A stretch of 64,000 bases of DNA from Anaerovorax odorimutans. Its GTDB lineage: Bacteria > Bacillota > Clostridia > Peptostreptococcales > JAAYPU01. The position numbers and the translations under genes are program-made. The notes beneath the pieces were generated by a model. That model was not told the DNA's origin, searched no databases, and saw only the letters and a program-made list of their open reading frames with translations. Positions within the stretch are counted from its first letter, which is position 1. Each line of letters starts with the position of its first letter. Location of the stretch: positions 1-64,000 of the forward strand of contig JAENZQ010000007.1 in assembly GCA_016841185.1 (NCBI GenBank). The letters are read 5' to 3'. This document shows, piece after piece, positions 25,094-27,739 of the stretch.

Positions 25094-25537
25094 TCAGCTG
25101 TTCAGGCCTTTTATGAATATAACGCCTAAAACCATCAGAATCATCCCAAAAACTCTTGTGAAACTCAGAGGAACCTGTTCGATACCAAACACACCATAAT
25201 ATTCCAAGCAGACAGAAAGAATTACCTGAGATGCAATGGCTATAGAAAGAGCTGTTGCCGGGCCAAGTATCCTCACCGAAAAAGCAGAGCCTACTACAAT
25301 TATAAGACCCAAAACGCCTGCTAACAAATAATATTTCGGAACTGCCGTAACCTTGCTAATATCTCCCTTTCCCAAAAAAGCTACTGTTAAGAGCATAATT
25401 GAGACCGTTGTTAAAATACTGATTAAACTTGCTTCTAAGGCACCTGCCTGTTTCCCGATATTAGAAATAAATATCGGTTGTAAGCATAAGCATGCACCGA
25501 CCAAAACTGCAATAAAAATGGAAAAAATACTACTCAT
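25094..25537 (-). CDS. DMT-superfamily YdcZ-like (DUF606) membrane protein
   Basis: Very hydrophobic 147-residue protein with about four or five transmembrane helices and the conserved internal [21 protein letters not shown] and [27 protein letters not shown]. This is the DUF606/YdcZ family, often a half-size drug/metabolite transporter working as a dimer. Its ATG overlaps the mgsA stop (ATGAGTAG), with AGGAGA 8 bases upstream. Substrate unknown. Confidence 0.8.
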
Positions 25538-26003
25538 TTTTTTTATCTCCTATGCTGCTAAGTCTCGACGAATAATCCAGGACCCTTCTTTCATATGCCT
25601 CATCCATATAATCTGAAGAAAACAGAAAGTCTGCCGTGGATTGGTTCATTGCAATGGGTATATCGTACAAAACAGCAATCCTGAGCAGCGCTTTTACATC
25701 CGGATCATGAGGCTGGGCGGATAAAGGGTCCCAGAAAAACACCATAAAGTCGATATCTCCCTCGGCAATTCGGGCACCTATCTGTTGATCGCCGCCGAGA
25801 GGCCCGCTTAGAAATGCTTTTATTTTTAATCCCGTTTCTTTTGATAGGAGTTTAGAAGTTGTTCCGGTTCCATATAGGCAGTGTTTTTCGAGATGTTCTC
25901 TATTTTGAGCTGCCCATGTTAAAAGATCCTGTTTTCTATGATCGTGTGCTATAAGTGCAATATTCTTCCTTTTTTTCATCTCAACTTTCTTCATTTCAAA
26001 CAC
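25530..26003 (-). CDS. mgsA: Methylglyoxal synthase
   Basis: Converts dihydroxyacetone phosphate to methylglyoxal and phosphate, relieving sugar-phosphate stress. MgsA signatures are [60 protein letters not shown] and NQSTADFL, including the catalytic aspartates. Length (157) is normal. The start is GTG 26003 with GGGAGGA upstream, or in-frame ATGs within the next ten codons. It heads a three-gene overlapping operon with two transporters, which may export the product or a derivative (speculative). Confidence 0.94.
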
Positions 26004-26148
26004 CCCATGTCCTCCCTAAACTTAAACTGATAACGCAGTATTCCTTCAATGGTCCAATTTTGTCTATTATACTATAAAGCAAAAAAAATATCGCGCATAT
26101 TGAATACAAAAAAACTGATCTAATATTCTGAATTTTATAATAACTTTA

Positions 26149-26178
26149 TTGACATTTATTGTAGTATTCTGTTATAAT
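26149..26178 (+). promoter_or_regulatory. Consensus sigma-A promoter of the intergenic small RNA
   Basis: TTGACA (26149-26154) and TATAAT (26173-26178) are both perfect, with an 18-bp spacer. No plus-strand gene lies downstream before the terminator at 26308-26351. Confidence 0.85.
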
Positions 26179-26184
26179 ACAGTT

Positions 26185-26351
26185 GAGCAAAATATTTTGC
26201 AAGGCTAAAAAAAAACAGCAGAAAGAGGTGATTCCCCCTAAAGATTGAGTGTAATACAATTGAAAGAGGGTGGTTCCACCAAAAACAATAAGCATTGAAA
26301 GTTATTAGAGCCAATCCAGTAAAAATTAATGGATTGGCTCGGGTTTTTTTT
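26185..26351 (+). ncRNA. Candidate small RNA, about 167 nt
   Basis: A consensus promoter and a strong intrinsic terminator delimit about 167 bases in the 362-base gap between mgsA and gltS, transcribed towards the gltS 3' end. The 5' end can fold at GCAAAATATTTTGC. The middle holds two related units, GAAAGAGGTGATTCCCCC (26221-26238) and GAAAGAGGGTGGTTCCACC (26262-26280), each pairing a purine-rich GGTG with a C-rich segment. Pyrimidine-rich UUCCCCC/UUCCACC segments resemble anti-Shine-Dalgarno seed regions of trans-acting small RNAs. I see no convincing ORF. I cannot place it in a known Rfam family from memory. Confidence 0.7.
26308..26351 (+). terminator. Strong intrinsic terminator of the small RNA
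   Basis: GAGCCAATCCA / TGGATTGGCTC forms a perfect 11-bp stem with an 11-base loop, followed by GGG and eight T residues. Confidence 0.9.
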
Positions 26352-26365
26352 GCCTTTAACTCATA

Positions 26366-27739
26366 TTATTCTTTACTTGAAATTAGTTTCTTCCTAAGCA
26401 TTACAAATAAAATAATCAGTATATACACCATTAAAATAATGAGTGTCACCCAATACAATAAGGAGTTATTCCGTACATAGCCGATGACAGGGATGTTTAA
26501 AACCAGCAGAAGCGGAAAAGCCACAAATAAGGCTACTGCTGAGCCCAAAACGAGATTCTCCGCAACTCTGGTATTAAAATAAGGATCTGTTTCTTTCAAT
26601 AACGCAAGGGCCGTAGATACTGTTCCCGTCATCATACCATAAAGAGATATGGTATATTCCAGAGTATACTTTTTGTATACCTTCTTGCAAATAAAAATCG
26701 AATAACCCATTGTCAATATACCTCCAAAAAAACTAAGCAATAAGATAGGTACAAAATACTCTTTAACTGCAAAAAAGGAAATTGCCGAGATAGCTGCTGC
26801 TACAAGAAAATCAAAAGATCCTCCGGATATTCGCTGCAGTAAATAGTCATTGGGAAACAATTCGATCTGTACTTTTCTTTTTTTAAGGAAATCAAACAGA
26901 TATCTGAAAAAAATGGCGTAAATGATCCCAAAGAGAAAATTAAATCCCCATAAAATCTGAGCAATAGTCGCACCAAAAGAGCCCAATGGCAATAATAAGG
27001 TGTTTAGGCCGGAAATGGTCATATAGGTTATAAAATAGATTGCACCGATAATGGCTAATTGAATGGTTATCTTATCCATGGATTGGCTAAGAGGAACATC
27101 GCCTGCTTCGGATAATTCTGTGATATGATTAATCTTTCTTTTTTTCAGGTCATTCTTAATAGTAAAATGTCTTTTTCTGATCAAATAGTTCAGCATCAAA
27201 ATCCCTCCGATGCTACCCCATATGTATCCCAGTGTGGCAAGAGCAAGGCCTACATTCCCCATATATTCAAACCCCATTTTCTCCCACTGGCTTCCGATAG
27301 AATAGGCGAATCCTGGCCCCTGTCCATAAGCTAAAGGGAGGAGCAGGCCGATGCCGGGAAACAATTCATGGTATAAAAAAAGCATCAGTATTATGGCAAT
27401 AACAAATCCGATAATTGCCTGAAACAAATAAGTTGAAACAATGAACAACCCGGTACTGATGACTTCTTTCGTTTTATTCTTTTGTCTTTCCTTAAGAGCC
27501 ATGGCAATAAACCCTATCGATAACATGTGGTAGACAATTCCCTCTAAATTTTGAGATTGAGTTTTAAAAACGTCTAAAACCTGCGGCCCTGCCAGCAATC
27601 CTATGAAACCGGCAATAATCGATGTAGGAATAATGTATTTATCAAATACTTTTATCTTCGTTTTAAGAATAGATGCCGCAGCAAGGCAAACAGATATATA
27701 CATGAAATCCATTATAAATCCCCATTGTTCGCTCATCAT
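26366..27739 (-). CDS. gltS: Sodium:glutamate symporter (GltS family)
   Basis: Polytopic membrane protein of 457 residues with about eleven to twelve helices. IPTSIIAGFIGLLAG near the N-terminus and PLAYGQGPGFAYSIG in the middle match the conserved Gly-rich/discontinuous-helix motifs of GltS (PF03616). GMMTGTVSTALALLKETDP is the inverted-repeat counterpart. It couples glutamate uptake to sodium, in keeping with the sodium-pumping pyrophosphatase elsewhere in the window. It is longer than E. coli GltS (about 400), mainly through a charged loop near 190-215. AAAGGA precedes the ATG; it is the last gene of a four-gene run. Confidence 0.85.
   Translation of the reverse strand: MMSEQWGFIMDFMYISVCLAAASILKTKIKVFDKYIIPTSIIAGFIGLLAGPQVLDVFKTQSQNLEGIVYHMLSIGFIAMALKERQKNKTKEVISTGLFIVSTYLFQAIIGFVIAIILMLFLYHELFPGIGLLLPLAYGQGPGFAYSIGSQWEKMGFEYMGNVGLALATLGYIWGSIGGILMLNYLIRKRHFTIKNDLKKRKINHITELSEAGDVPLSQSMDKITIQLAIIGAIYFITYMTISGLNTLLLPLGSFGATIAQILWGFNFLFGIIYAIFFRYLFDFLKKRKVQIELFPNDYLLQRISGGSFDFLVAAAISAISFFAVKEYFVPILLLSFFGGILTMGYSIFICKKVYKKYTLEYTISLYGMMTGTVSTALALLKETDPYFNTRVAENLVLGSAVALFVAFPLLLVLNIPVIGYVRNNSLLYWVTLIILMVYILIILFVMLRKKLISSKE

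Follow-up and report, generated by a model that had tools for sequence, protein, structure and literature searches.

Between mgsA and a convergent gene, the window (the whole 64-kb stretch of DNA that was analysed) holds a predicted stand-alone RNA gene with two copies of a short unit. Across this RNA and its relatives we observed a conserved architecture, variation resembling that of start and proline codons, complementarity to 16S rRNA, fusion of the unit to a peroxiredoxin gene and independence from the neighbouring genes. The reading that we favour, while judging it a little short of probable, is that a stand-alone RNA made of repeated M-x-Pro-Pro mini-ORFs recruits and delays ribosomes. 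That the units are translated is the firmer part of this reading and has moderate support; recruiting and delaying ribosomes would be the purpose of that translation. We infer the whole sequence of events, from transcription through unit translation and ribosome pausing or drop-off to a benefit to the cell.

The sole 12/12 site found by the promoter scan in this region is a sigma-70 promoter on the forward strand, TTGACA-18-TATAAT, at 26149-26178 (-35 at 26149-26154, -10 at 26173-26178, with TG before the -10). This near-consensus promoter, at the head of the locus 26149-26352, predicts a transcript that would start near 26185. The predicted RNA has a 5' hairpin in the fold (GCAAAATATTTTGC, 26187-26200, forward strand; GCAAAGTATTTTGC is its counterpart in the close relative G001) and ends at an intrinsic terminator with a U tract (GAGCCAATCCA/TGGATTGGCTC, 26308-26351, forward strand), which is seen in the sequence and the fold and is kept in G001. 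The terminator has an 11-bp stem (26308-26318 and 26330-26340), an 11-nt loop and a U tract at 26344-26351, with a folding energy of -19.1 kcal/mol; the mechanical terminator scan overlooked it solely because it limits loops to 8 nt. The scan and the fold thus bear out an earlier note on this DNA, which had described a perfect TTGACA/TATAAT promoter and a strong terminator. Together, promoter and terminator predict an RNA of about 168 nt. Its whole-RNA fold reached -43.7, compared with -28.8 +/- 3.6 for shuffled sequences (z = -4.2), and beat 200 of 200 shuffles, the terminator supplying much of this advantage.

Upstream of the -35 lies an AT-rich palindromic box, AATATTCTGAATTTT (26122-26136, forward strand), matching AATTTTCWGAAAATT at 12 of 15 positions; it may be a CodY-like box or part of an UP element, an uncertain assignment. 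In relatives from families f1 and f10, boxes matching at 11-14 of 15 positions (up to 14 in some f10 relatives) lie close to the -35 or directly against it, whereas f2 has none; the CodY protein is present in all 11 genomes tested, G000 included. CodY control was dropped for the family as a whole, given that f2 lacks the box and that it may instead belong to an UP element; control by starvation is a possibility. The divergent upstream neighbour (25530-26003, reverse strand) is the methylglyoxal synthase gene mgsA, as previously named, and matches TIGR00160 and NF003559. The convergent neighbour (26366-27739, reverse strand) encodes a hydrophobic protein of 457 residues that had been called gltS; Pfam and NCBIfam searches returned no family for it, though its sequence is transporter-like, and the name found no backing. 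The gap to this gene, estimated at about 14 bases, is 14 nt, the U tract ending at 26351 and the stop codon lying at 26366.

Unit 1 (GAAAGAGGTGATTCCCCC) occupies positions 26221-26238 and unit 2 (GAAAGAGGGTGGTTCCACC) positions 26262-26280. They are the only two matches in 64 kb at up to 3 mismatches, in keeping with the two related repeats first described, and at least two matches arose in 2 of 100 shuffles. Each unit has a purine tract, AGAAAGAGG (26220-26228, forward strand) in unit 1 and GAAAGAGGG (26262-26270, forward strand) in unit 2, predicted to be a strong anti-SD site overlapping a start codon. The region had been described as having no ORF, which holds for conventional lengths only, since an in-frame mini-ORF begins at each unit on the forward strand. 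The first, suggested by the sequence and the family pattern, is GTG ATT CCC CCT AAA GAT TGA (26228-26248), encoding M-I-P-P-K-D-stop, and its counterpart in G001 is GTG ATT CCC CTT AAA GAT TAA. The second, GTG GTT CCA CCA AAA ACA ATA AGC ATT GAA AGT TAT TAG (26270-26308), would encode M-V-P-P-K-T-I-S-I-E-S-Y-stop and terminates at the terminator stem. In the predicted G000 fold, units 1 and 2 are base-paired to one another, and about 16 kcal/mol is needed to open the two. A GGUG/CACC hairpin as the basis of the unit was a weak candidate, as it shows no compensatory changes and is broken in unit 1.

Relatives were found through the unit 2 pattern in Acidaminobacter hydrogenoformans and several Anaerovoracaceae-like genomes, and DNA searches added others. 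G001, the only close relative, carries a full-length homologue in another genus of the same family; this homologue adjoins nfo (endonuclease IV), is 78% identical over 200 nt and keeps the promoter, the terminator and both units, which are nearly unchanged. R1, a sequence-only model built from 15 relatives, matched the window at 26259-26312 (E = 1.6e-10; its training set includes that sequence). At E < 1e-4 it matched 35 of 247 genomes of Peptostreptococcales, the order as assigned from A. hydrogenoformans, some of these matches being R1 training sequences, and over 291 genomes of the class it found nothing better than 1e-3 outside the order. Judged by this model, relatives lie in at least 35 genomes of the order, and matches elsewhere in the class stay at background level. 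The only candidate outside the order was a Carnobacterium maltaromaticum contig (L077:5948, JUUF01000249) with two unit-like sequences about 120 nt apart upstream of glnR/glnA, reading VSPPKYEIE-stop and VIPPKY-stop; it could be a chance match or a misassigned contig. Partial BLAST matches (such as L003, L007, L008, L009 and L025) were discarded as chance or coding. BLASTN searches of plasmid and phage records with the RNA, and exact-pattern searches of viral contigs, gave no match and hence no sign of a mobile element.

A strong promoter, mostly with an extended -10, precedes the RNA in nearly all relatives, and in family f2 roughly 180-350 nt separate the two units, with the terminator following shortly after the second. 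The neighbouring genes differ by lineage (mgsA, nfo, a gene for an FMN-reductase-like protein, feoB/corA, atpC, coaE and typA, with atpC and typA named by eye), which indicates that the RNA gene is independent of its surroundings. In part of f10 (L084:6202-6355 in G279, L076, L080 and L075), the RNA lies between feoB and a co-directional gene for a CorA-type Mg2+ transporter, an arrangement that possibly reflects a lineage-specific regulatory link. In a second f10 subgroup (L086, L087, L096, L094 and L132), an insert of about 60-200 nt lies within the terminator stem, AATACCRRTTG..CAAYYGGTATTATT, which shows compensatory changes.

Rfam release 15, a search suggested in the earlier note, gave no match at the gathering threshold at the locus, the best hits at E <= 10 being far below threshold, and likewise no family at the unit loci of the relatives. 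A T-box was rejected at the locus, where the resemblance of AGGGTGGTTCCACC is superficial and neither an RF00230 match nor a T-box architecture was found. One Rfam T-box (L120:1747-2017), below the gathering score (E = 2.4e-13), lies separately, about 230 nt downstream of a unit, and is probably the leader of the next operon. Promoter, terminator and the lack of an Rfam match support the original description of an unannotated stand-alone small RNA, and its two units are indeed kept in related genomes. The RNA family is real, widespread in an order of gut and sediment bacteria that includes gut anaerobes, and absent from Rfam 15, even if the mechanism proposed here is wrong; its novelty rests mainly on that absence and on general knowledge.

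About 70 units share one pattern: 6-9 purine nucleotides, NTG, a variable codon (ATT, ATA, GTT, GTC, AGT or AGA), CCN CCN and mostly AAR or GAR. After removal of one spurious match, TG was kept throughout and the first position of the start codon was G in 62 units, A in 5 and C in 3 (variants are exemplified by L194, L200 and L204-L206). The regular-expression census presets the C positions, and the evidence by codon position was therefore taken from model matches. Among 57 complete units found by the model, codons 3 and 4 differed six times, always at the third position and never at the first or second (CCG in L121, L135, L207, L208 and L211, and CCT in L196); the chance of six out of six is about 0.001 if positions are equal, a figure that takes no account of shared ancestry. 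CCC, CCT and CCG also occur in the internal units of f1 and f2, the one exception being CTT in G001. As a counterpoint to the codon reading, an A-to-G change in CCA would still leave a G-U pair if the site lay in an RNA duplex. At codon 5 the synonyms AAA and AAG replace each other, as do GAA and GAG. Many relatives have [AG]TG directly after codon 5, but a start there was rejected, this triplet being ACA, ACG or GTT in others and ACA here. In L125, L126, L127 and L130, units 1 and 2 often share their second codon (AGT/AGT or AGA/AGA), as if a common partner set it, and other lineages deviate from this.

Within the RNAs, the in-frame stop of an internal unit usually lies 0-4 codons past the prolines, giving the reads MIPP, VIPPK, MIPPK, MIPPI, VSPPK, VIPPKD and VSPPKY, each followed by a stop. 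Over all units, the distance to the frame-0 stop was not significantly shorter than in other frames, and in G001 and L128 the frame between unit and terminator is lost. The largest array (L221:2624-3000, G212:C15) has five units in tandem about 85 nt apart, with near-identical spacers (ACAGACATT..GGAAAGAGAAAAAAGTGATC), one promoter-like region and one terminator, and faces a convergent typA/bipA-like gene. With NTG as the start, these units would read MIPPKQS, MIPPKLA, MIPPK, MIPP and MIPPKYE, each ending in a stop. In family f9, from three genomes of one genus, the unit forms the start of an AhpC/TSA peroxiredoxin (bcp-like) gene, at L197:606, L198:696 and L199:521 and 725, and a conserved leader of about 170 nt precedes it. 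For L198, no in-frame start other than the unit's GTG lies between the stop codon upstream and the AhpC/TSA domain.

The 16S rRNA of the relatives ends in GGCTGGATCACCTCCTTTCT, and duplex energies were computed against its last 16 nt. Units 1 and 2 reached -19.5 and -18.4 kcal/mol, respectively, with a median of -18.4 over all units, compared with a median of -10.5 and a best value of -19.4 kcal/mol for the 52 long ORFs of the window. Within the RNA, it is exactly units 1 and 2 that pair most strongly with the 16S tail in these calculations. The letters of the purine tract vary (AAAGGAGTG, AAAGAGGTG, AAGGAGGGTG and AAAGGGTG) while the predicted pairing stays strong, which points to the ribosome as the conserved partner. 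In the units the SD overlaps the start codon without a spacer, whereas genes in the window mostly use 5-10 nt, and initiation at the GTG of a unit would therefore be atypical.

We propose that this RNA, about 168 nt long and driven by a strong promoter, contains two modules for starting translation, each made of a 16S-pairing purine tract, an adjoining NTG, a variable codon, two proline codons, a short unconstrained tail and a stop. The modules would recruit ribosomes, which would make fMet-x-Pro-Pro and then slow down, or lose the short peptidyl-tRNA, at the proline pair, a step normally eased by EF-P. Peptidyl-tRNA drop-off, which EF-P relieves, becomes more likely both with consecutive prolines and with short nascent chains (PMC8934632), and EF-P is present in G000 and seven other genomes. 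The RNA would thereby act through ribosome occupancy, catching ribosomes or sensing translation, and not mainly through pairing of its C-rich parts with messages. A broader proposal, which we regard as possible but doubtful, is that tandem super-SD/start/Pro-Pro mini-ORF RNAs with 1-5 modules form a new class across Peptostreptococcales that serves as a ribosome trap or an EF-P-dependent translation sensor, acting on the ribosome pool and not on target messages.

The strongest rival is the one advanced in the earlier note, a trans-acting base-pairing sRNA whose UUCCCCC and UUCCACC segments pair with ribosome-binding sites in target messages; such pairing would block translation. An RNA with its own promoter and terminator, no fixed neighbours and a C-rich conserved core, which a G-rich partner could mask, would suit such a regulator. 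The search for targets did not support these segments as seeds. Across 19 genomes, the complement of the extended unit occurred without mismatch only at the unit itself and at one extra site in G242, and one-mismatch sites were about as frequent as those of the reversed pattern; short, distant or lineage-specific targets may still exist. Seed complements were not enriched near the locus, where they occurred at 1 of 66 gene starts against 0.8 expected after shuffling. The C-rich part shows the variation expected of Pro-Pro codons (CCA, CCG, CCC and CCT), and the preceding NTG varies among initiation codons. The purine half, for which a C-rich seed has no need, is conserved as a predicted strong 16S-binding site, and the unit serves as a gene start in the peroxiredoxin fusions. 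On balance, we consider seed pairing unlikely.

Slightly less likely still is 30S anchoring without translation, with the purine tracts serving as SD sites without a useful start that shield the RNA from a 5' exonuclease, in the manner of STAB-SD, or sequester 30S subunits. Very strong 16S pairing at zero spacing is consistent with this, and messages in Bacilli gain stability from a strong SD that has no start codon behind it (PMC3997798). Anchoring leaves unexplained the NTG, the CCN CCN, the synonymous variation at codon 5, the short in-frame stops and the peroxiredoxin fusion, and whereas STAB-SD occupies the 5' end, the units lie in the middle and 3' part of the RNA.

The same codon-level evidence that supports ribosome-delaying modules would also fit a bicistronic messenger for functional micropeptides beginning with M-x-P-P-K/E, and peptides such as VIPPKD, VSPPKY and VIPPEMLSEDFK recur. 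We consider such a messenger improbable, as protein-level constraint ends at codon 5 and lengths vary from 4 to about 30 residues. Past codon 5, substitutions fell evenly over the three codon positions (37/45/49) and were mostly nonsynonymous (60 against 15 synonymous), and a conserved peptide in this part was rejected. Only the start and the first five codons appear to be kept, as expected if what matters is initiation followed by Pro-Pro. Very improbable is a leader-peptide attenuator, in which ribosome progress over Pro-Pro would decide terminator formation and reading of a downstream gene: final units do have their in-frame stop beside the base of the terminator stem in most relatives, and a co-directional CorA-type gene follows in part of f10, but in the window, G001, G268, the f2 genomes and G212 the RNA is followed by a convergent gene, leaving nothing downstream to control.

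If the units are translated, the conserved functional part of this RNA family would be a ribosome-binding start plus two proline codons, present up to five times in one transcript, the remainder being filler. The family would then offer a natural, testable case of a cellular RNA that acts by capturing ribosomes or by causing peptidyl-tRNA to be lost early, and EF-P activity would be tied to a regulatory RNA. A caution also follows, namely that C-rich 'seeds' of small RNAs can be Pro-Pro codons.

In the literature, of which our coverage was partial, we found no precedent for a stand-alone tandem array of such units, and several known systems share some of their features. C-rich sRNAs of Gram-positive bacteria (RoxS/RsaE, LhrC and csRNAs) are short independent transcripts with C-rich conserved stretches. 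The RNA described here has in common with the RoxS/RsaE or LhrC type its own promoter and terminator and its independence from neighbours; unlike these sRNAs and csRNAs, it has no Rfam match, its C-rich stretch is codon-like and no conserved complementary targets were found. Proline uORFs and leader peptides of the MgtL type likewise have early proline codons expected to slow ribosomes and a stop beside a terminator, whereas most lineages here, the window included, have no downstream gene. The STAB-SD of cryIIIA, like similar 5' stabilisers in Bacillus, is a purine-rich SD with strong 30S binding that is not required to drive a normal gene (PMC3997798). The units have strong predicted 16S pairing too, but STAB-SD belongs to the 5' leader of a long message, whereas the units lie in the middle and 3' part of a short RNA and are followed by NTG and Pro-Pro codons. 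Minigenes and translation-aborting sORFs, which have a short ORF behind a strong SD and a stop within a few codons, have the same arrangement as the units, whose spacing is atypical. The phage lambda bar minigene is a very short ORF behind a strong SD, and its effect arises from early ribosome behaviour and not from the peptide. The translation-aborting sORF mgtQ of Salmonella is likewise very short, lies behind a strong SD and owes its effect to early ribosome behaviour, not to its peptide (PMC8092293). Lambda bar and mgtQ sit in phage RNAs or inside operons; by comparison, the units described here make up a terminated RNA of their own, occur in up to five copies and have a Pro-Pro start in common.
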